A stretch of 63,966 bases of DNA from IMG/VR virus record IMGVR_UViG_3300046457_000167, positions 1 through 63,966 of that record; one strand, given 5' to 3'. Made by a program: the position numbers and the translations under genes. This DNA comes from a virus. Positions 8,119 through 63,524 of the stretch are shown one piece after another. Position 1 is the first letter of the stretch. Each line of letters opens with the position of its first letter. The notes under the pieces are model-generated. The model did no database searches, was not told the origin of the DNA, and saw only the letters and a program-made list of their open reading frames with translations.

Positions 8119-8871
8119 CTAATATTTTCCCGATAACACTATAGGATGGACGGAAACAACGTCATCCCGATCAAAGCGAATTTGCGAATCCGGATTGTGC
8201 TGGCGCAGCGTGAGGTGATCGCCCTGCCACCCGATAAATTCCTTTATGAACCCATATGGCGGCACTCCTTCTTCATCGGGGTGGACCTGAACAATAACGT
8301 CGTCGCCCCGGCGTGCGGGCTTGTGCGGGTGGACCCATACGACCTCACCTGGCCGGTATCGCGGCGACATTGACTCACCGTCCACATAAACCGCGTATGC
8401 CCCTGGTACGCCCTCTAGGGAAGGCGGGCAGGCTACATAATCAATGACGCTGCCATTGAATTGATAGCGGCCATCAATCCCACCGACAGCCTCGCCAAGG
8501 ACCGGAATAAGCTTGCCGGGGCGTATAGATGCTGGAATCGGTGTGTTTCGATCGACTCGGCCGTTCGGTTCATCGAAGTTGCGCAAGTCCTGCCTGCGCA
8601 GAAGAACGTCTATCGGCACCTTTGATATGCTACGCGGCAAGCGGGTCGTCTTGCCGGACTCTCGTCCAGCTTCAATCATCATCTGCCGCATCTCTTCTTC
8701 TGGTATCTGCAACGCCATTGCGATCTCTCGCCATTTCCTCGGCGAAGCAACGCCTCCTGAAAACAGCTCGCTGATACTTGGCTGTGCAATTCCTACCTTG
8801 TCGGCCAATTCTGTCTGGCTAATACCCAGTTCTGCGGCTCGTGCGGAAAGCGTCTCTGAAAGCTTGCTCAT
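8119..8871 (-). CDS. CI/LexA-like repressor with S24 peptidase domain
   Basis: The protein has 250 aa. An XRE-type helix-turn-helix (ISQTELADKVGIAQPSISEL) lies near residues 18-37. The C-terminal half is an S24 autopeptidase domain with the Ser box VDGESMSPRYRPGEVVW and a lysine in FIKEF, so the Ser-Lys dyad is intact, and GEAVGG upstream is a plausible self-cleavage region. It should keep lysogeny and be inactivated by RecA-stimulated cleavage. It is divergent from the gene at 9050 across an AT-rich operator region. Confidence 0.88.
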   Translation of the reverse strand: MSKLSETLSARAAELGISQTELADKVGIAQPSISELFSGGVASPRKWREIAMALQIPEEEMRQMMIEAGRESGKTTRLPRSISKVPIDVLLRRQDLRNFDEPNGRVDRNTPIPASIRPGKLIPVLGEAVGGIDGRYQFNGSVIDYVACPPSLEGVPGAYAVYVDGESMSPRYRPGEVVWVHPHKPARRGDDVIVQVHPDEEGVPPYGFIKEFIGWQGDHLTLRQHNPDSQIRFDRDDVVSVHPIVLSGKY

Positions 8872-9967: not shown

Positions 9968-10022
9968 TTGACAAATTTGTCAAATAGCCATACAGTCTAA
10001 TCTATCATGACAAATTTGTCAA
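9968..10022. promoter_or_regulatory. Divergent promoters with two operator palindromes
   Basis: The palindrome at 9968-9983 supplies the -35 (TTGACA) of a rightward promoter with TACAGT at 9991-9996, spacer 17. The palindrome at 10007-10022, read leftward, supplies TTGACA for the repressor promoter with TAGACT at 9999-9994, spacer 17. The two -10 boxes overlap, so polymerase can use only one direction at a time, and repressor on either site hides a -35. This is the main early switch. Confidence 0.85.
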
Positions 10023-24261: not shown

Positions 24262-24290
24262 TTGACAAATTTGTCAAGTTAGTGCATAGT
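24262..24290 (+). promoter_or_regulatory. Operator-promoter for the cytosine methyltransferase
   Basis: TTGACAAATTTGTCAA at 24262-24277 provides the -35; CATAGT follows at 24285-24290 after 17 bp. The upstream context TTGTCCATC is also shared with the site at 9968. Confidence 0.8.
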
Positions 24291-24325
24291 GATCGACCAC
24301 CACCACCACATTAGAGGAGATGCTT

Positions 24326-24358
24326 ATGAGGGTCACGACGATGTTGGTTGCCGAATAG
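24326..24358 (+). CDS. Leader peptide of 10 aa coupled to the methyltransferase
   Basis: GAGGAGATGCTT precedes ATG 24326, which opens a 10-codon frame (MRVTTMLVAE) ending in TAG at 24356-24358. The TAG shares its G with a GTG that starts the methyltransferase frame (TAGTG). No other ribosome site serves that GTG, so translation of the enzyme probably depends on reinitiation after this peptide. Confidence 0.5.
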   Translation: MRVTTMLVAE

Positions 24359-25362
24359 TGCGCGTCCTTGACCTGTTCAGCGCGGCGGCCGGCGGGTGGT
24401 CCCTTGGGATGCACCGCGCCGGATACCGCACGATAGCCGCCTGCGAAGTCATTGATTGGCGCCGCACCCTTTATTCAGAGAACAACCCGGGAGTGCCCGT
24501 TTATGACGACGTCACAACTCTTACCGCAGACCGACTTATTCGGGACGGTATTGGACTTCCCGATATCGTCGTCGGCAGCCCGCCGTGTCAGGATATCAGT
24601 AGCGCCAACACCAAAGGCAAAGGCGTCGACGGAGAGCGAAGCGGTCTCTACTTCGAGGCCATCCGACTTATCGACGAATGCCGCCCTCGTTGGTTCGCTC
24701 TTGAGAATAGCGCTAATCTCAGAACTAGAGGCGCAGACAGGGTCATCGATGCGCTGGAGGCCATCGGCTACACCTGCTGGCCGTTTGTGGTCAGTGCTGG
24801 AGATATCGGCGCGAACCACGAGCGAAAGCGAAGCTGGCTTATCGGGTTTGATGGGAACGCCGACTGCAAATCCGGCTCCGCGTGGCTCGGTGCTGCGGCG
24901 GATGAAGGGGCGCATGACGAGTGCGGAAGACGACTTCGCGGAAATGCTCGGCACTCCGACCAAGACATCGAAGCGCCGGTCGGAGGAGTTCATGGATGGT
25001 CGGTCGCCAACAATGGTGGAGGCGCTGCAGGGCCTGGCGTCGGAGAAATGGGCGGGAGCGCGAGCGCTAGCAGCCATATTGCAGAGCCATGGGCTGACTG
25101 GAACGGCGGCCTTGCCGGTCACCTACGGGTGGATGATGGGATATCCGGATGGGTGGCTGGCACGCGCATTGCGGTCGGCGGTCCAAAAGGGACATCTGCA
25201 GCTTCCCTCATCGTCGAAGCGTTCGGCGACGCCGTCTGCCCGCAAATCCCGGAAGCCATTGGTCGAGCCATCTTGAGGGTGGAGCGCGCCTTGGCTGCTA
25301 TCCATGGCGACAACGACAACTACCAGCTAGCATCCAGCGCCCGCAGCGTCTCCCATGCGTGA
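24358..25362 (+). CDS. DNA (cytosine-5) methyltransferase with an apparent frameshift
   Basis: From GTG 24358, motif I VLDLFSAAAGGWSLG, motif IV GSPPCQDIS (near residue 75) and the ENS motif (near 114) are clear. After about 24850 this frame becomes Gly/Ala-rich, while the +1 frame gives LMGTPTANPAPRGS, MLGTPTKTSKRRSEEF and YGWMMGYPDGW, typical of the target-recognition part of phage cytosine methyltransferases, ending at 25276. The original frame still reads FGDAVCPQIPEAIGRAI (motif X-like) near its end. A shift at GGGTTT (24844-24849) would join the parts. Activity of the uninterrupted frame is uncertain. Confidence 0.7.
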   Translation: MRVLDLFSAAAGGWSLGMHRAGYRTIAACEVIDWRRTLYSENNPGVPVYDDVTTLTADRLIRDGIGLPDIVVGSPPCQDISSANTKGKGVDGERSGLYFEAIRLIDECRPRWFALENSANLRTRGADRVIDALEAIGYTCWPFVVSAGDIGANHERKRSWLIGFDGNADCKSGSAWLGAAADEGAHDECGRRLRGNARHSDQDIEAPVGGVHGWSVANNGGGAAGPGVGEMGGSASASSHIAEPWADWNGGLAGHLRVDDGISGWVAGTRIAVGGPKGTSAASLIVEAFGDAVCPQIPEAIGRAILRVERALAAIHGDNDNYQLASSARSVSHA

Positions 25363-29700: not shown

Positions 29701-29729
29701 TTGACAAATTTGTCAAACTAGACTACATT
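29701..29729 (+). promoter_or_regulatory. Operator-promoter for the 29.8 kb operon
   Basis: TTGACAAATTTGTCAA at 29701-29716 supplies the -35 and TACATT at 29724-29729 the -10, spacer 17. TTTCCACC directly upstream is shared with the site at 20769. Confidence 0.82.
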
Positions 29730-29757
29730 GCGCGTATGCAAATCAGCGGGGGAATTT

Positions 29758-30855
29758 ATGAGCGAACTTATCAAGATTGCAGCGCGACTGGCTCGGCGTG
29801 AAGGCTTGCCAGATGGCACAGCATCCATCGTTTACGATTGGCTAGGCGCGGAAGCTGTCGCCCTTCGCAAAGTTCACACAGACCACATAGCCGCTCTCGA
29901 AGCCGTGAAGGCGACGGTGAAGCCATTGGAGTGGGAAGAACCGAGTGCGAGCACAAATCAGTGCTGGACAGCGAAAAGCCCGTTCGGAACCTATTCTGTC
30001 GTTAACGAGGATGGATGGTACGCCGCCAGAGAGCCGGAAGGCTTTTGGGAATGGAACGGCGATCGGATAATAGACACTCGGCACACAGCGTTTACCGCCT
30101 GCCAAGCAGACTACGAGCGGCGCATCCTTTCCACCATCGTTCCATCTCCCGCTCTCGAAGCCAATCCGATGTCGTTTACCAGCGACGATGATGCGACCGA
30201 GTTCCTGAAGCTCTACGGCCACGAGGAAACGCGCAACGGCGTTATCTCAGGCGACTGGCGGTCATTCGACGCGGATTGCCGAGCAGCGGTACAGTACCTC
30301 TGCGACGAGTGGGACTTTGTTTTCGAAGATGCCGCTCTCGAAGCCAATCAGCAAGACGTTGAGCAGAAACGGCGGGAAAGTGAAAACGAGGCTTTCCATG
30401 TGTGGTGGCAGGAGAGTGGCCACGCCGCTGACCCAGTTTTTACGCTGACAACGGAGAATTGCGCCCATGCCGCATGGCAGGCACGCGCCGCTCAAGAGGC
30501 TAATCAGAGCACGCCTGAAGTGCTGGCTGACCACGAGCGTGGGTGCCAAGGCCGCGAATACACATGCACCTGCGGTTACGACGAAGCCAATAAGCAGGTT
30601 ATCGAAACACTCAAAGCCGAACACCGCGCACAGATGGCCGACATGTCCGAGCGGTTCCGTGAAGTGAATGTCTCGGAAGCACTACGCCAGATGGGCAACG
30701 ACAAGCAGGTTATCGAAACACTGCGGGCGGCGCTGACGGCAATTGAGGATGCGATCCTTGCAAGCGAGGATGGGCATTTTGTGGGCGACGTCCTAGCCAA
30801 CTATCGAGCGGTCAGACGCGACATCCAGGATCGTCGCGCCGCTCTATCCATCTAA
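29758..30855 (+). CDS. Mosaic phage protein, 365 aa, unknown
   Basis: ATG 29758 follows GGGGGAATTT. The segment VKPLEWEEPSASTNQCWTAK with YERRILSTI is a small domain often found in phage proteins of unknown role. Later parts include HAAWQARAAQEAN and a duplicated NKQVIETLKAE / DKQVIETLRAA, giving a coiled-coil C-terminus. CQGREYTCTCGYD holds three cysteines. It looks assembled from several short modules. Confidence 0.6.
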   Translation: MSELIKIAARLARREGLPDGTASIVYDWLGAEAVALRKVHTDHIAALEAVKATVKPLEWEEPSASTNQCWTAKSPFGTYSVVNEDGWYAAREPEGFWEWNGDRIIDTRHTAFTACQADYERRILSTIVPSPALEANPMSFTSDDDATEFLKLYGHEETRNGVISGDWRSFDADCRAAVQYLCDEWDFVFEDAALEANQQDVEQKRRESENEAFHVWWQESGHAADPVFTLTTENCAHAAWQARAAQEANQSTPEVLADHERGCQGREYTCTCGYDEANKQVIETLKAEHRAQMADMSERFREVNVSEALRQMGNDKQVIETLRAALTAIEDAILASEDGHFVGDVLANYRAVRRDIQDRRAALSI

Positions 30856-54492: not shown

Positions 54493-54696
54493 ATGAAACT
54501 CGTCCCCAACTGGCGACGGGTGCTGCTGCATTCGTTCGCCTTGTGGTGCGTCTACGCCGCAGGGCTGCTTGAGTTGCTGCCGTACCTCGTCCCGTACCTA
54601 GACGACTACCTGCCGCACTGGCTGTCGATTGCAGCTTTGCTGGCGTCGCCCCTTGGGCGTGTCATCGATCAAGGAAACATCCATGCCGATAAATAA
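54493..54696 (+). CDS. Small membrane protein of the lysis region (DUF7940-like)
   Basis: The protein has 67 aa. NWRRVLLHSFALWCVYAAGL is the first hydrophobic segment and HWLSIAALLASPLGR the second. Proteins of this type precede phage lysozyme genes and may act as holin or antiholin. Confidence 0.65.
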   Translation: MKLVPNWRRVLLHSFALWCVYAAGLLELLPYLVPYLDDYLPHWLSIAALLASPLGRVIDQGNIHADK

Positions 54697-55318
54697 GATT
54701 GTCGCCACCAAGCGCGGGAAGGCGGCCATCGCCGCTGCCATCGTCGCCGCTGCCGTAGGCGGCTGGCACGCTGTTGGGGATAGCTCGCCGACGGTTCATC
54801 CGCCGGCCGTTATCCTTGCGACTGACTCTTTGATCCTGCCTTGGGAGGGCATGGTCCTGCAGTCGCATTGGGATCGCTACGCCAAGATTTACGACATTTG
54901 CGCGGGCATCACTCGCATAGACGGAAAGCCAGTCACCGCGAACATGCGCTTCACCAAGCCTGAATGCATGCAGATGACCCGCGAGCAGATATTCCACGAC
55001 TACTACATCCCGCTGGTCAAGATGGTTCCTGGCTTCGTCAACTTCCCGGTCGGAGTGCAGGCAGCAATGATCTCCGGCGCCTACAACTTCGGCGTGGGGT
55101 CGTACACGAACCACACTGGCATGGCCGGTTCGACCGCGGCCCGTCTCCACGTTGCCGGTCAATACCGCAAGGGCTGCGAGGCTCAGACCAACTTCAACAA
55201 GGCTGGCGGCATCATCGTCGATGGTCTGGTCAAGCGCCGCGAGATGGGCGATCCGCAGCGTCCCGGTGAAGCCGAAATCTGCGTATCGGGGTTGCCTGCC
55301 GATGGAGCCGCTTCATGA
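54683..55318 (+). CDS. SAR endolysin, lysozyme family
   Basis: The protein has 211 aa. Residues 13-31 (KAAIAAAIVAAAVGGWHAV) are a weakly hydrophobic Ala/Gly-rich segment typical of a signal-arrest-release anchor. The catalytic region is LPWEGMVLQSHWDRYAKIYD, with E55 and D64 spaced E-x8-D as in phage lysozymes; the third residue, usually Thr, is uncertain (DICAGIT). FNKAGGIIVDGLVKRREME-like end fits the family (GLVKRREMGDP). It cleaves peptidoglycan after release from the membrane. Confidence 0.88.
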   Translation: MPINKIVATKRGKAAIAAAIVAAAVGGWHAVGDSSPTVHPPAVILATDSLILPWEGMVLQSHWDRYAKIYDICAGITRIDGKPVTANMRFTKPECMQMTREQIFHDYYIPLVKMVPGFVNFPVGVQAAMISGAYNFGVGSYTNHTGMAGSTAARLHVAGQYRKGCEAQTNFNKAGGIIVDGLVKRREMGDPQRPGEAEICVSGLPADGAAS

Positions 55319-59098: not shown

Positions 59099-59188
59099 TC
59101 ATTCCCGCCCCAACTCAGGGTGGGTATACACCTCCCGCCTTCCATGCTTAAATACCCACGCTAGACATGTCCGCGTTTAGCCTTTTCA

Positions 59189-59223
59189 GACCCGTCACCC
59201 TAACCGGTGGCGGGTCTTTTTTT
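59189..59223 (+). terminator. Strong terminator at the end of the late operon
   Basis: GACCCGtCACC (59189-59199) pairs with GGTGgCGGGTC (59206-59216), 10 bp around one mismatch, followed by TTTTTTT. It isolates the protease/ExbBD operon from late transcription. Confidence 0.88.
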
Positions 59224-59250: not shown

Positions 59251-59279
59251 TTGACAAATTTGTCAAATTGATCTACAAA
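59251..59279 (+). promoter_or_regulatory. Operator-promoter for the protease-ExbBD operon
   Basis: TTGACAAATTTGTCAA at 59251-59266 supplies the -35; TACAAA at 59274-59279 is the -10, spacer 17. CCACC directly upstream matches other copies. The operon is thus controlled with early genes rather than with lysis. Confidence 0.85.
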
Positions 59280-59351
59280 GGAATCCACTGCACCGAAGCC
59301 CGCCGCTCGTTTACCAGACGACCGGACCACCACAGCAGAGGAGACCAGCCA

Positions 59352-60020
59352 ATGAGATATTACAAATATTCGTTGTTCGGCGTCATTGTGACCGCCGTCG
59401 TGCTTTTCACTGGCGTTGATTACGCCACCAGTCGCCAGCCGACAACCGTTTCCGAAAACGCTGTCGTCAAGGTTACTCTGGCTAACTGCCACGGTTCCGG
59501 CGTCAACATCGGTGATGGCTTCATTGTTACCGCCGCCCACGTCGCTGGCGACGCTACGACGGTCAAAATCAAGACCAGCACCGGCAAAGAAGTTGACGCA
59601 GACGTTCTGTGGATCAACAAGACTTACGACCTCGCGCTATTGCGCACCGCCGACATGATCGGCAAGGGCACGCACATCGATTGCCGCACGGCTAAGGCTG
59701 GCGAGACAATCCAAGCGGCCGGCAATCCCCTAGACTTGGAATTCGTTTCTTCCTTCGGCCGCATCGCTGGCGACGTTCGCGAGATCGGGCCATGGAAAGA
59801 AGCGCTGGTTACCGACATCACTACCGTCATGGGGCAGAGCGGCGGCCCGGTCTTTGAAGCCGACGGGCGCGTCATCGGAATTACGGTGGGCGTGTTCGCT
59901 GCGCCCCTCAAGGGCGGCAAGGATGCGGCTGGCGCTGACATCTACACGCCTACGATGACCGGCTTTGGCATGGTTGTCCCGTCTTCTGCGATATGCCGCT
60001 TGCTGGCTAGGGAGGTGTAG
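59352..60020 (+). CDS. Membrane-anchored trypsin-like (DegP-type) serine protease
   Basis: The protein has 222 aa; ATG 59352 follows GAGGAGACCAGCC. Residues 7-24 (SLFGVIVTAVVLFTGVDY) form an N-terminal signal anchor placing the enzyme in the periplasm. The triad is complete: H63 (VTAAHVAG), D93 (TYDLALLR), S163 (GQSGGPVF). There is no PDZ domain. It leads an operon of membrane proteins; the substrate may be one of its partners or a host envelope protein. Confidence 0.88.
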   Translation: MRYYKYSLFGVIVTAVVLFTGVDYATSRQPTTVSENAVVKVTLANCHGSGVNIGDGFIVTAAHVAGDATTVKIKTSTGKEVDADVLWINKTYDLALLRTADMIGKGTHIDCRTAKAGETIQAAGNPLDLEFVSSFGRIAGDVREIGPWKEALVTDITTVMGQSGGPVFEADGRVIGITVGVFAAPLKGGKDAAGADIYTPTMTGFGMVVPSSAICRLLAREV

Positions 60021-60023
60021 GGG

Positions 60024-60494
60024 ATGGATATGGCAACGCTAGCGGCCAACCGTAACGCGCCGTTCCCTCGCTTCTCTACGGCTACGGCCCGCCTCATCAT
60101 CCTGAACACCTGCTGGGCCGCTCTCGTCATCTGGGCCGCCGTCCTTGGCTACGTGTCCTTCATTTTCACGCATGACATATCGGGGTTGTCGTATGTGATC
60201 ACCGTCTTGTTCACGGCTTCGTTGGTTGCCGTCTTCTTTGGCCGCACGTCGCATCTGGCTCGCATCGAGGTCTGGCTGGTCACGCTTGGCCTCATAGGCA
60301 ATGTCATCGGCTTTCTTCTTGCCTTGCAGCACATCGATACCGGGTCGCTTGCCACGGCGCAGGGCGTCCAGCGCGTTGCGACCGCTTTGCTAGCCGGTAT
60401 GGGCGTGGCGTTCTGCTCGACGCTGGTGGGCGCTGTAGCGGCGCTGTGGACGAGCACGGTGGCGTGGGTTGTTGGTGCGGAGGAGGTGGGTTGA
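60024..60494 (+). CDS. ExbB/TolQ/MotA-like membrane channel protein
   Basis: The protein has 156 aa with hydrophobic segments near residues 25-46, 56-73, 81-100 and 118-148. VWLVTLGLIGNVIGFLLAL and TALLAGMGVAFCSTLVGAVA follow the two conserved ExbB/TolQ/MotA blocks (L-G-L-L-G-T-V-x-G and G-M-x-x-A-L-x-T-T-x-x-G). Those proteins form a proton channel around two ExbD/TolR/MotB helices. The downstream gene supplies such a partner. Confidence 0.75.
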   Translation: MDMATLAANRNAPFPRFSTATARLIILNTCWAALVIWAAVLGYVSFIFTHDISGLSYVITVLFTASLVAVFFGRTSHLARIEVWLVTLGLIGNVIGFLLALQHIDTGSLATAQGVQRVATALLAGMGVAFCSTLVGAVAALWTSTVAWVVGAEEVG

Positions 60495-60640
60495 TGGCTG
60501 AGAAGAAGACGCCAGCGCAACAGCTTGAGATCGCCGCACAATGGCTGGCTGAGGCGGCGGAATCAGTAAGCGACAAAAGCATTCAATCCAACCTGCGGCG
60601 CGTGTCGCGAGAGTGCAAGGCCATGGCGGTGACACCATGA
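60494..60640 (+). CDS. Small helical protein between the ExbB- and ExbD-like genes
   Basis: The protein has 48 aa from ATG 60494, sharing a base with the upstream stop. AEKKTPAQQLEIAAQWLAEA is an amphipathic helix; it ends in a short basic segment. The overlap with both neighbours makes it part of the same translation unit. Confidence 0.6.
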   Translation: MAEKKTPAQQLEIAAQWLAEAAESVSDKSIQSNLRRVSRECKAMAVTP

Positions 60641-61179
60641 CCCATATCCTCGTCCGCGACCTCTTATTAAATATGCTTTTGGGCCTCGTCGCTCTCGTCG
60701 TCCTAGTTCTCGCGCAGGTAAACCCAGCCTCCACCGAACAACAGCTAACCCCGCCCGGCAATCTCATCGCCTCCATATCCTGGCCAGCCGGGCCGGTGGA
60801 CATCGACATCAGGGTCGGCGCTCCGGGAGACGAGGTCGTCGATTACAATCGTAAGTCAGGGAAAATCTGGAGCCTGCTGCGGGACGACCTCGGAACGGCC
60901 AATGACGATACGCCGCTCAACATGGAAGCGGCCTTCACGCGCGGCCTGCCTGACGGCGAGTACGCAGTGAATGTCCGCTGTTACTCGTGCGCCGCCCACG
61001 TACCGGTTCCGGTGGCCGTCGAAGTGCGGCTGGCCGAAGGAGGTTTGGTGTTTAGTGGGTCGGTGAATTTGCTGGCCGATAAACAAGAAAGGACCGCGAT
61101 TCGGTTTATCCTGAAAGATGGGCGGGCTGTGGTCGGTAGTGAAAGCAGTGTTTTTAAGCAGATGAAGGGGGATAAGTGA
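60637..61179 (+). CDS. ExbD/TolR-like protein with periplasmic domain
   Basis: The protein has 180 aa. The single N-terminal membrane helix LVRDLLLNMLLGLVALVVLV begins with an Asp (residue 8), and LAQVNP follows, as in ExbD/TolR/MotB-type stators where an Asp carries protons. The periplasmic part (PGNLIASISWPAGPVDIDIR, LLRDDLG, GLPDGEYAVNVRCYS, PVPVAVEV) is a beta-rich domain and not the usual ExbD fold or OmpA-like peptidoglycan binder. Confidence 0.72.
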   Translation: MTHILVRDLLLNMLLGLVALVVLVLAQVNPASTEQQLTPPGNLIASISWPAGPVDIDIRVGAPGDEVVDYNRKSGKIWSLLRDDLGTANDDTPLNMEAAFTRGLPDGEYAVNVRCYSCAAHVPVPVAVEVRLAEGGLVFSGSVNLLADKQERTAIRFILKDGRAVVGSESSVFKQMKGDK

Positions 61180-61180
61180 G

Positions 61181-61372
61181 ATGGCGCTGGATGACAAGAA
61201 GATTGTTGGACTAGCTTGGGCGCACTTCGGGGAAAGCGTGTTCATAATGCTCACGCGCGAGAAGTCTCCTCCGATGATACCGCAAGAAACGTATGACGTT
61301 CCAACATTGGCATTGCGCCGGTTCGTTGATGCGATATGCGCCGCAGCCTTGGAGGGACCAGGCGATGCGTAG
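61181..61372 (+). CDS. Small protein, 63 aa, in the ExbBD operon
   Basis: ATG 61181 is two bases after the previous stop. KIVGLAWAHFGESVFIMLTR and VPTLALRRFVDAICAAAL; soluble, no known family. Confidence 0.55.
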   Translation: MALDDKKIVGLAWAHFGESVFIMLTREKSPPMIPQETYDVPTLALRRFVDAICAAALEGPGDA

Positions 61373-61682
61373 GGAAGATTTCCCTGTTGCATTCAACGGC
61401 GGTTTTCGCCCTGCGGTCACGAAGATTCGATGCCCGAAGTGCCGCTGCAAGAACATCCAACTGACAGAGTTCGTTGAGGCATCAACCACGTTCCAAGTAA
61501 CTGATGGAAAGCTCAACCGCGAGGATGGCATCCACGAACTCGGTAATTTCATCGGGCGAATGGCTGGAAAATGCGATGGCTGCGGACATCTCTGGGCCCT
61601 ACGGAAGGCCAGCGAGATAGAGACGGTAGTCACCGAGCTTGACCCGAAAACCTTTCGGCCACTTTACGAGGACATCCCATGA
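61365..61682 (+). CDS. Zinc-ribbon protein
   Basis: The protein has 105 aa. Cysteine pairs CPKCRCKN and CDGCGHLW, about 45 residues apart, would hold one zinc. The start is ATG 61365, overlapping the previous gene by 8 bp. Function unknown. Confidence 0.6.
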   Translation: MRREDFPVAFNGGFRPAVTKIRCPKCRCKNIQLTEFVEASTTFQVTDGKLNREDGIHELGNFIGRMAGKCDGCGHLWALRKASEIETVVTELDPKTFRPLYEDIP

Positions 61683-62104
61683 CAGCCACCATCACCCTAT
61701 GGCTCACCTTCATCCTGGCATCCGCCACCATCGCGTGGCTCGGCAGCAAGCGGCAGGCCATCGCCCTCGCCATTGTCGCCGCACTCACGTTGCCAGCCGC
61801 ATTCCTTACATTGGGCTACCCATCGCCCACATCGCCACCATCTGGGCGATCCATCGTACTCGGCTCGCGCATCGATGTGGATGTGGCGATCTACGTGCTG
61901 ATCGATGACCAGCCGGAACCGCGCTACTACCGCCTGCCGTATTCAGCGGCGACGGCCAACGCACTGCAGGCCGCTCAAGACGAGGCGGAAGGCACTGGCG
62001 GCGCTGTTGTCATGAATACCGGTAGTGGCACGGCTGGCTTTTCCGAGGAACACGACGCCAGCAACGACCGACCGAAGCAGGCGGAAACGCCGATGCTGCA
62101 ATGA
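61679..62104 (+). CDS. Membrane protein with periplasmic YYRLPYS motif
   Basis: The protein has 141 aa. Two hydrophobic segments (residues about 5-20 and 24-43) are followed by VLGSRIDVDVAIYVLIDDQP and PRYYRLPYSAATANALQAAQ. Similar two-pass proteins with a Y-x-L-P motif occur beside ExbD-like genes in some phages. It may be a structural partner of the channel. Confidence 0.6.
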   Translation: MTATITLWLTFILASATIAWLGSKRQAIALAIVAALTLPAAFLTLGYPSPTSPPSGRSIVLGSRIDVDVAIYVLIDDQPEPRYYRLPYSAATANALQAAQDEAEGTGGAVVMNTGSGTAGFSEEHDASNDRPKQAETPMLQ

Positions 62105-62259
62105 GCCAAATGAGCGACATAGAATTGGGTCTACTGAAAATAGGCTTAGCGTTCGTCGCGTTGTTCACGACAGTATTGACCGGGTGCATCGTTGGTCTAC
62201 GGCAACTTGGGCCGGAACCGGAAGATGATGTGCCAGGCTCACAAAAGAAGGAATCCTAA
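62101..62259 (+). CDS. Small single-pass membrane protein, 52 aa
   Basis: ATG 62101 overlaps the previous stop. GLLKIGLAFVALFTTVLTGC is a membrane helix; a short acidic C-terminus (GPEPEDDVPG) follows. The LTGC could be read as a lipobox, but the N-terminus lacks the usual basic residues. The stop overlaps the next start. Confidence 0.6.
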   Translation: MSQMSDIELGLLKIGLAFVALFTTVLTGCIVGLRQLGPEPEDDVPGSQKKES

Positions 62260-63524
62260 TGCCTACACCTAAGATGACACAAGAGCAGATGCAGGAGGCG
62301 GTCTCGCTGCTCGAGCTATACGGCACGGCTTCGGCAGTGCAGGAGGCTACAGGCATTCCGCGCACTACTATCCAGTCGCGGGTGAAGCGGGCCGCTGAGT
62401 CTGGGTTGATGGGGACGCGGCCGGTCCTTCCCGGCTTTGCCATCAAGTCCGTGTCCAGCAAGACGGAAGACGGCGCGTGGGTGAAGCAAACGAAAGCGCC
62501 AGGCGAAGTCTTCGAGATGCCGGAAGGGTTTGCGCACAAGCGCATATCGAACCTGTCTGACGGGCAAGGCAGGACGCTGGCGAGATGGGACATAGTCGAG
62601 CAGGATAAGGCTGCGCAGATGGTGGCCATGCGGGCGGCCGTCGATGCGCTCAAGGAAGACTTGCCGCGCGCAAGCATCGCGTTGCCACCGGCCAGCGTTG
62701 AGGCCGATCTGCTTAACTTTTACGGAGTTTCCGACAATCATTTCGGCATGCTTGCGTGGCGCGAGGAGACAGGATCGGACTACGACCTGCGGCTGGCAGA
62801 GCAGATATTCATCGACTGGTTTGCTGCAGCCATCGCCCAAAGTCCGCAGGCGCATACCGCCGTCTTTGGGCAGCTCGGGGATCTGATGCATCACGATTCG
62901 CTTGAATCGGTGACGCCAGCACACCGGCACGTACTAGACGCGGACTCGAGATTACAGAAAATCATCAGAGTCGTCATTCGGTGTATGCGGCAGGTTATCG
63001 ACATGCTCTTGCAGAAGCATCAGCACGTTCACGTCATCATGGCATCCGGCAATCACGACCCAGCGTCGTCGGCTTGGTTGAGAGAGATGTTCGCTACTAT
63101 CTACGAAAACGAGCCGCGGATCTCTGTCGATAACAGCCCATCGCTTTACTACGCCTATGAGTGGGGTGACACCGCGCTCTTTATGCATCATGGCCACAAA
63201 CGCAACATCAGCAACGTCGACGTGACATTCGCCGGGATGTTCAGGGAAATGTTCGGACGGTCTAAGTATGCGTACGGCCACATCGGCCACCTGCACAGCG
63301 ACGAAGGCCGCAAGTCGGGCCTGATGTATATTGAGCGCCATGAAACGCTGGCGGCGCCTGACGCCTATGCTGCGGGCGGCGGGTGGCTATCAGGACGCTC
63401 CGCCAAGGTGATCACTTACAGCAAGCGTTTCGGGGAAGTAGGAAGGCACATCCTACGTCCGGAAATGGTTGCTGGTGCTTACCGTGCAGCCAATGACAAC
63501 CAGCCACAAGCTAAAGCCGCCTGA
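62259..63524 (+). CDS. HTH plus metallophosphoesterase
   Basis: The protein has 421 aa. A winged-helix/HTH (QEAVSLLELYGTASAVQEAT, PRTTIQSRVKRA) spans residues 8-45; from residue 150 a calcineurin-like phosphoesterase follows with GVSDNHFGM, GQLGDLMHHD, ASGNHD, MHHGHKR and GHIGHLH. Such phage proteins may hydrolyse phosphodiester bonds in nucleic acid or nucleotides. AANDN near the end. Confidence 0.85.
   Translation: MPTPKMTQEQMQEAVSLLELYGTASAVQEATGIPRTTIQSRVKRAAESGLMGTRPVLPGFAIKSVSSKTEDGAWVKQTKAPGEVFEMPEGFAHKRISNLSDGQGRTLARWDIVEQDKAAQMVAMRAAVDALKEDLPRASIALPPASVEADLLNFYGVSDNHFGMLAWREETGSDYDLRLAEQIFIDWFAAAIAQSPQAHTAVFGQLGDLMHHDSLESVTPAHRHVLDADSRLQKIIRVVIRCMRQVIDMLLQKHQHVHVIMASGNHDPASSAWLREMFATIYENEPRISVDNSPSLYYAYEWGDTALFMHHGHKRNISNVDVTFAGMFREMFGRSKYAYGHIGHLHSDEGRKSGLMYIERHETLAAPDAYAAGGGWLSGRSAKVITYSKRFGEVGRHILRPEMVAGAYRAANDNQPQAKAA

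Follow-up and report, generated by a model that had tools for sequence, protein, structure and literature searches.

Introduction

Stators of the superfamily that contains MotA, TolQ, ExbB and ZorA are known from flagella, nutrient (iron) uptake, envelope constriction, gliding and phage defence. In Zorya, the phage defence system, the cytoplasmic tail of ZorA is essential (PMC11890865).

The window, i.e. the whole stretch of 63,966 nucleotides analyzed here, is 64-kb DNA of a temperate phage, a relative of Rhizobium phage 16-3 with root-nodule bacteria as hosts, and an integrase gene is also found in it. A sequence-only reading had described a repressor-controlled operon in this DNA, coding for a protease, an ExbB/ExbD-like pair and several small proteins, and all of the features it listed are found in the window. 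The parts described here are:

59188–59217, + strand: terminator-like hairpin (12-pair stem, then a T run) dividing the operon from the tail/SGNH region upstream
59251–59266, + strand: putative repressor operator TTGACAAATTTGTCAA, found in seven strong copies across the window
59352–60020, + strand: membrane-anchored trypsin-like (S1C/HtrA-type) protease, predicted to be periplasmic (Pfam Trypsin_2, E=1.7e-20; phrog_9683 'protease', E=1.9e-53)
60024–60494, + strand: gene A, ring subunit of MotA/TolQ/ExbB/ZorA type in a minimal form (156 aa with four helices and hardly any cytoplasmic loop)
60494–60640, + strand: 48-aa protein, outside the conserved core
60637–61179, + strand: gene B, a single Asp8-bearing TM helix joined to a beta sandwich that is related to DUF2135 and has a TerD-like fold
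61181–61372, + strand: 63-aa protein, not conserved
61365–61682, + strand: non-conserved protein resembling a zinc ribbon (two CxxC pairs)
61679–62104, + strand: gene C, obligate third member, a predicted two-TM hairpin plus periplasmic domain
62101–62259, + strand: 52-aa single-TM protein, non-core
62259–63524, + strand: DNA repair exonuclease (phrog_704, E 2.3e-125), the next conserved gene and the end of the membrane module
8119–8871, − strand: CI-like repressor that may bind the operators (match to phrog_4, 'transcriptional repressor', at E=2.8e-27)

The frames had been described as nearly all overlapping; this holds, by a few bases, for A/48-aa, 48-aa/B, zinc-ribbon/C, C/52-aa and 52-aa/exonuclease, and not for the protease and A, which lie 3 bases apart. 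No published description of the A-B-C system was found in the open-access literature, and it is seemingly unnamed in the databases searched.

Genes A and B as a stator-type pair

When the PDB was searched with a profile of 71 A proteins, the top 23 matches were all 5:2 stator rings (MotA, PomA, TolQ, ZorA and ExbB), with MotA the best (4e-7). The window protein alone scores E=1.2e-4 and 22.2 bits against Pfam MotA_ExbB (PF01618), slightly below the cut-off of 22.9 that its relatives exceed (31.3, 30.1 and 25.4 bits; also 37.7 and 32.2 bits). Both pore positions of TolQ align with A: T178 corresponds to T133, a threonine in 69/71 A proteins, and T145 corresponds to N93, which is Asn in the window and T in 63 of the 71. 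The AlphaFold model of A (pLDDT 90.9) has its last helix ending at residue 150, and VIA places it closest to ZorA, ExbB and TolQ (Z 10.9, 10.5 and 10.2), the top 30 structural matches being stator rings. The VIA scores against about 26 stator chains (Z 8–11) lie above those of unrelated rows, with the proviso that high scores may arise by chance for helical bundles. Foldseek E-values are weak (best 0.66), and the case for A is built from profile matches, conserved residues and the alignment by VIA. By profile, predicted ring-subunit fold and pore positions A is assigned to the MotA/TolQ/ExbB stator superfamily, as the sequence-only reading had proposed for 60024–60494. Because A is almost without a cytoplasmic part, contact with a rotor is not obvious.

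The partner protein B combines a familiar helix with a different periplasmic domain. A single TM segment is predicted in 82/83 B proteins, and Asp8 is kept in 78 of the 83 relatives; five chromosomal B proteins have no Asp at the aligned position and carry one 4–5 residues earlier. The periplasmic domain of the window protein has no direct Pfam match, and an ExbD/TolR domain was found neither in it at E up to 1 nor in its relatives. An OmpA-like peptidoglycan-binding domain was likewise considered and rejected on the missing Pfam match and on the AlphaFold model (pLDDT 92.2), which shows a DUF2135/TerD-like sandwich. Profile alignment with hhalign relates this domain to DUF2135 (PF09906; 97.1%, E 7.4e-11), a homologous beta sandwich that in the known members examined is not fused to a stator helix. 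Comparison with TerD (PF02342) by VIA gives Z values of 11.8, 10.5, 10.3 and 9.5, most other rows being at or below 6.5, although hhalign stays below 1% against both shallow and deeper TerD alignments, so that fold alone agrees and sequence homology to TerD was rejected. Acidic residues D55, D57, D83, D84 and E97 are conserved in B and are suggestive, though only that, of calcium binding. The proposal that B is ExbD/TolR-like therefore stands for the helix with Asp8 and fails for the periplasmic domain. PDB profile matches, pore residues, the Asp helix and VIA nevertheless all point to A and B as a stator-type pair.

Comparison with known stator systems

Three known stator systems each share part of this architecture. 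With Zorya ZorAB the pair has in common the ring-subunit fold, the pore residues and a B helix with a membrane Asp, ZorA being the top structural match of A; however, A is without the ZorA cytoplasmic tail, B is without a peptidoglycan-binding domain, ZorC, ZorD and ZorE are missing, and A-B-C is phage-borne with an additional obligate subunit. Consistent with this, NCBIfam ZorA models score A at 12–16 bits versus cut-offs of 250–700, and when the eight proteins of the operon were scanned with PADLOC, the only matches among Zorya models were weak ones of A to ZorA. Strict Zorya membership is rejected on the missing tail and effectors and on the B domain. TolQR/ExbBD share the ring fold, the T145/T178-type positions and the partner's single N-terminal helix with Asp, but in A the four helices come without a large cytoplasmic loop, no ExbD/TolR domain is found in B, and C is not TolA/TonB-like. 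MotAB/PomAB share the four-helix layout of A, but A lacks the FliG-engaging cytoplasmic loop and B lacks the OmpA-like domain. Strict membership of ExbBD/TolQR or MotAB is thus rejected on the periplasmic domain of B.

Gene C and the conserved module

The order A-B-C is fixed in 276/287 fetched loci from very diverse genomes, most exceptions lying at contig ends, and in 20/20 further stretches of Rhizobiales chromosomes. Co-occurrence of A and B in related phages, which had been anticipated, is thus borne out by locus comparison, and hundreds of phages carry the three-gene form, as do many bacterial chromosomes (Pseudomonadota). The unit is not the pair plus accessories that had been envisaged, because C is present just as regularly as the other two. 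Among 30 16-3-like loci, homologues of the 48-aa protein occur in 5 and of the 52-aa protein in 7, and the 63-aa and zinc-ribbon proteins (the latter with a sub-threshold Pfam Zn_ribbon_16 match, E=0.007) in the window only; on these counts all four were rejected as core members. In phage 16-3 a stretch homologous to the 48-aa protein is joined to the protease as a C-terminal extension. The exonuclease follows the membrane module in the same gene order in phage 16-3.

Gene C, previously overlooked as the third member, would by this conservation be an essential, obligate partner. Two TM segments are predicted in 48/54 members of its family, and the connecting loop is positive in 52/52 hairpins; the hairpin of the window protein is predicted N-out by the positive-inside rule. 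A search of the PDB with the C profile gave no convincing relative.

The protease

The protease carries the triad H63/D93/S163 (numbering from the ATG at 59352) and a membrane anchor, as had been noted, and in 30 relatives the H and S are invariant (30/30 each) while the remaining triad residue is Asp in 23 and Glu in 7. The Trypsin_2 domain with its triad and the membrane anchor are shared with HtrA/DegP-type S1C proteases; the phage protease differs in having no PDZ match in the Pfam search. Its proposed link to the stator genes holds within one lineage: it lies next to A-B-C in 30/30 16-3-like loci, with variable genes between, and is absent beside A-B-C outside that lineage. In other phage lineages the module has genes for ClpP, Hsp20 or ClpS as its neighbours. 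A coupling of motor and protease may be read from this gene order.

Early repressor control

Seven strong copies of the operator TTGACAAATTTGTCAA (6 exact, 1 with one mismatch) occur in the whole window, where 0.13 would be expected by chance, together with an additional weak copy with three mismatches. The first half of the copy at 59251 is a perfect −35 hexamer, and a −10 hexamer, TACAAA (59274–59279, 4/6 match), lies 17 nt downstream of it; the same spacing recurs at the operators at 9968, 24262 and 29701. The copies and the −35/−10 spacing uphold the earlier claim of an early operator upstream of the operon, and the seven copies lend support to early repressor control of the membrane genes. 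In a lysogen this operator would be expected to keep the operon silent, and exclusion of superinfecting phages by a resting prophage, one of the roles suggested earlier, is therefore disfavoured.

Proposed mechanism

The best explanation as a whole, and one that we regard as probable, is that A and B form a compact ion-driven stator with C, joined in 16-3-like phages by the protease as a fourth component and acting on the host envelope. A ring of A subunits would surround B helices in the inner membrane, in a 5:2 ratio by analogy; Asp8 in the B helix and the threonine T133 in the A ring would be the two sites between which protons (or other ions) move. Torque or movement would reach the periplasm, where B presents its sandwich in place of a peptidoglycan-binding domain and C its own domain. 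In 16-3-like phages the HtrA-type protease, in the same membrane, would probably be regulated by, or act on, the same periplasmic target. Because the operon is expected to be silent in lysogens and switched on at an early stage of the lytic cycle, the machine would most likely maintain or remodel the host envelope during infection. We propose more tentatively, as a rather unlikely extension, that A-B-C represents a class of ion-driven envelope machines not described before, with a DUF2135/TerD-like domain as its working part in the periplasm. Phages would be the main agents of its spread, and in 16-3-like phages it would act directly on the membrane-anchored protease during infection, driving or gating it. 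The sequence-only reading is thus upheld in part, for the stator pair, its co-occurrence and the early operator, and set aside for the pair-only unit, the ExbD-like periplasmic domain and prophage exclusion.

Alternative explanations

An auxiliary energiser, in which the A-B motor drives C as a TonB/TolA analogue and powers uptake or placement of some substance across the envelope for the infected cell in the manner of ExbBD-TonB, would accord with C being an obligate partner that sits in the membrane and has a domain in the periplasm, and in Burkholderiales A-B-C lies near genes for PQQ-dependent alcohol dehydrogenases (37/80 loci) and a lipoprotein (41/80). Some A-B-C copies adjoin TonB receptors. 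We consider this explanation unlikely: C is a two-helix hairpin rather than of the single-helix TonB/TolA type, the phage operon contains no outer-membrane receptor, and the dehydrogenase association falls to 2/20 in Rhizobiales stretches, a count that led to rejection of any general association with PQQ/lanthanide alcohol dehydrogenases. Chromosomal neighbourhoods are widely different and indicate no single role.

The retained ion-channel residues, with hardly any cytoplasmic part able to turn a rotor, would also be consistent with a controlled ion leak through A-B that tunes either the membrane potential or the moment at which lysis occurs. However, the operon stands behind an early operator and away from the endolysin gene (54629–55318), and the conservation of a periplasmic domain in both B and C would be left unexplained, which makes such a regulator quite improbable. 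Even less probable is a counter-defence decoy, in which truncated ZorA-like rings poison host Zorya or other stators; the VIA ranking of ZorA and the PADLOC result for A speak for it, but the intact trio is also found in bacterial chromosomes, B and C are unlike ZorB or any Zorya part, and a decoy would have no need of ion-channel residues. That there is no motor, and that A reflects general membrane-protein similarity, is hardly credible and largely refuted, since the near-threshold Pfam score and weak Foldseek values are set against uniform stator-ring matches by profile and structure, two aligned pore positions, an Asp in the partner helix and a fixed A-B order.

Significance

The compact A-B stator with C, as preferred here, would mean that hundreds of phages carry a minimal stator that includes a third subunit and, in the periplasm, a domain of a new kind, whereas the known stators of the superfamily serve cells. 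The same trio is found in many Pseudomonadota chromosomes and is therefore a cellular system as well. In phage 16-3, a classical laboratory phage, genes p036, p038, p040 and p042 are open to deletion, and A-B-C offers a test of why a virus would need an ion-driven motor.

Organization and control of the operon

The window, a virus record of 63,966 bases, encodes an integrase and a CI-like repressor, and its operon region finds its closest annotated relatives in Rhizobium phage 16-3 and further siphophages of rhizobia; by this gene content and kinship it is classed as a 16-3-type temperate phage. Every gene named in a sequence-only reading, which had proposed a repressor-controlled operon joining a protease to an ExbB/ExbD-like pair, is present at the position given for it. 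The operon comprises:

59352-60020 (+), DegP-like protease
60024-60494 (+), gene A (156 aa)
60494-60640 (+), 48-aa protein
60637-61179 (+), gene B
61181-61372 (+), 63-aa protein
61365-61682 (+), zinc-ribbon protein
61679-62104 (+), gene C
62101-62259 (+), 52-aa protein

The window contains seven strong copies of a palindromic putative operator, one of them at 59251 (0.13 expected by chance). A perfect -35 hexamer forms the first half-site of this operator. Exactly 17 bases beyond it, at 9968, 24262, 29701 and 59251 (four of the seven copies), stands a hexamer that matches the -10 consensus at 4 of 6 positions, and a terminator-like hairpin lies immediately upstream of the 59251 copy. Because of this excess over chance, the promoter arrangement and the hairpin, repressor control of the operon is likely. 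The operon is grouped with early metabolism genes, apart from the endolysin (54629-55318). Other copies of the operator immediately precede a DNA methyltransferase gene (24262-25362; phrog_363, E 1.2e-53) and, as an exact copy with the same -10 spacing, a gene for a 375-aa protein without PHROG match (29701-30855).

A stator ring subunit and its partner

Gene A of the window scores 22.2 bits against Pfam MotA_ExbB (cut-off 22.9), and its relatives exceed the cut-off. When a profile of 71 A relatives was compared with all PDB sequences, the first 23 matches were stator rings (MotA, PomA, TolQ, ZorA, ExbB). The essential TolQ residues T145 and T178 correspond to Thr in 63/71 and 69/71 aligned proteins (Asn93 and Thr133 in the window). 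The AlphaFold model (pLDDT 90.9) aligns with type I and II ZorA at Z 10.9 (8vvi: 2.0 Å, 95 residues), with ExbB at 10.5 and with TolQ at 10.2; the top 30 rows of the structural search are stators without exception. Foldseek E-values were weak. Unlike MotA, A has no large cytoplasmic loop (its loop is 74-82). Profile, predicted fold and pore-position residues agree with stator rings, bearing out the ExbB/TolQ/MotA-like assignment and identifying A, by sequence and model, as a stator ring subunit.

B has a single N-terminal helix with Asp8, and Asp occupies the aligned position in 78 of 83 relatives; the other five are chromosomal, with an Asp 4-5 residues earlier. In a chromosomal subgroup (L150, L157, L167, L198, L207) Val replaces the ion-binding Asp at this position, again with an Asp 4-5 residues earlier (FDPF..VMLFK). 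A Pfam search of B found no ExbD, TolR or OmpA domain, and its AlphaFold model (pLDDT 92.2) is an eight-stranded sandwich best matched by TerD proteins (Z 11.8, 10.5, 10.3 and 9.5; most other rows ≤6.5). Sequence-profile comparison links this domain to DUF2135 (97%, E 7e-11) and detects no relationship to TerD. Its nearly invariant acidic positions (D55, D57, D83, D84, E97) would fit metal binding, as a guess from sequence. The ExbD-like description thus holds for the helix and fails for the head, which is DUF2135-related with a TerD-like fold; B is a stator partner whose periplasmic head is unusual.

A conserved trio

C, overlooked in the sequence-only reading, is the third member, with two predicted helices joined by a positively charged loop and, at its C-terminus, a periplasmic domain. 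A, B and C lie in this order on one strand in 276 of 287 loci (fetched by B or A queries, near-duplicates included), in keeping with the expected co-occurrence of the pair in related phages; B and C are equally well represented in the 80 A-selected loci. In eight of the 11 exceptions the trio sits at the end of a contig or close to it (L064, L095, L147, L190, L154, L257, L265, L273), two (L042, L073) represent a single contig whose candidate C has diverged, and in L149 no C was detected.

The trio spans 16-3-like phages, large rhizobial phages (e.g. RL38J1), contigs >300 kb and bacterial chromosomes. Viral contig scans found B in 215 and A in 296, and B occurs in 31 of 297 genomes sampled from the order to which Hyphomicrobium facile belongs. 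A search of 50,697 annotated phage records found the B gene in Rhizobium and Sinorhizobium phages only; in metagenomic viral contigs it is widespread.

A phylogeny of 83 B proteins unites the 16-3-like set in a single, well-supported clade with a long branch. Of the 16 bacterial rows, 15 likewise group together, in a clade nested within phage diversity. The tree suits exchange between phages and bacteria, in one direction or the other. Chromosomal A (L128-L207, L346-L365) is longer. Burkholderiales neighbours include a PQQ-dependent alcohol dehydrogenase (37/80 loci) and a lipoprotein (41/80); Rhizobiales stretches have the dehydrogenase in only 2/20, and mostly two-component systems or a Sel1-like protein. 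These neighbours indicate no single role.

The protease and other linked genes

The protease has the complete triad claimed for it (H63/D93/S163). It lies upstream of A in all 30 loci of the 16-3-like lineage, with His and Ser kept throughout and Asp replaced by Glu in seven; outside this lineage the trypsin-like protease does not adjoin the trio. Its proposed linkage to the pair is constant within the lineage and does not extend to others. In other phage lineages (L063, L075, L085, L088, L106, L107, L116; L066, L084, L096, L240, L280) the trio adjoins a ClpP-type protease, or Hsp20 upstream and ClpS downstream; a few jumbo-phage-like contigs have an SbmA/BacA-like transporter. Such neighbours hint at protein quality control, or may follow from gene clusters that these phages often carry.

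The A-end-to-B-end distance varies from 523 to 1459 bases across 16-3-like loci because small genes and homing endonucleases are gained and lost; homologues of the 48-aa, 63-aa, zinc-ribbon and 52-aa proteins occur in 5, 1, 1 and 7 of the 30. The phage 16-3 protease p036 (L002:6190-7089) has a C-terminal stretch homologous to the window's separate 48-aa protein.

Relation to known systems and possible role

Homology, residues, fold and gene order are direct observations; fold and residues place the system in the stator superfamily, with stator-like working suggested by analogy. Tests for membership of ExbBD/TolQR, MotAB and Zorya, each narrowly defined, were negative. Zorya depends on the ZorA tail and on ZorB binding peptidoglycan (PMC11890865); the trio has neither. 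No curated family (Pfam, PHROG, NCBIfam) covers B or C, annotated phage records label these two hypothetical, and no description of the trio was found in the open-access literature.

Superinfection exclusion by a resting prophage, as earlier suggested, is unlikely because the putative operator should silence the operon in the lysogen; other phages may be excluded during lytic growth. The reading adopted is that A-B-C would form an envelope machine, powered by ions and at work early in infection, and that the protease would be its lineage-specific partner; we infer its assembly, its ion flow, its coupling to the protease and its benefit.
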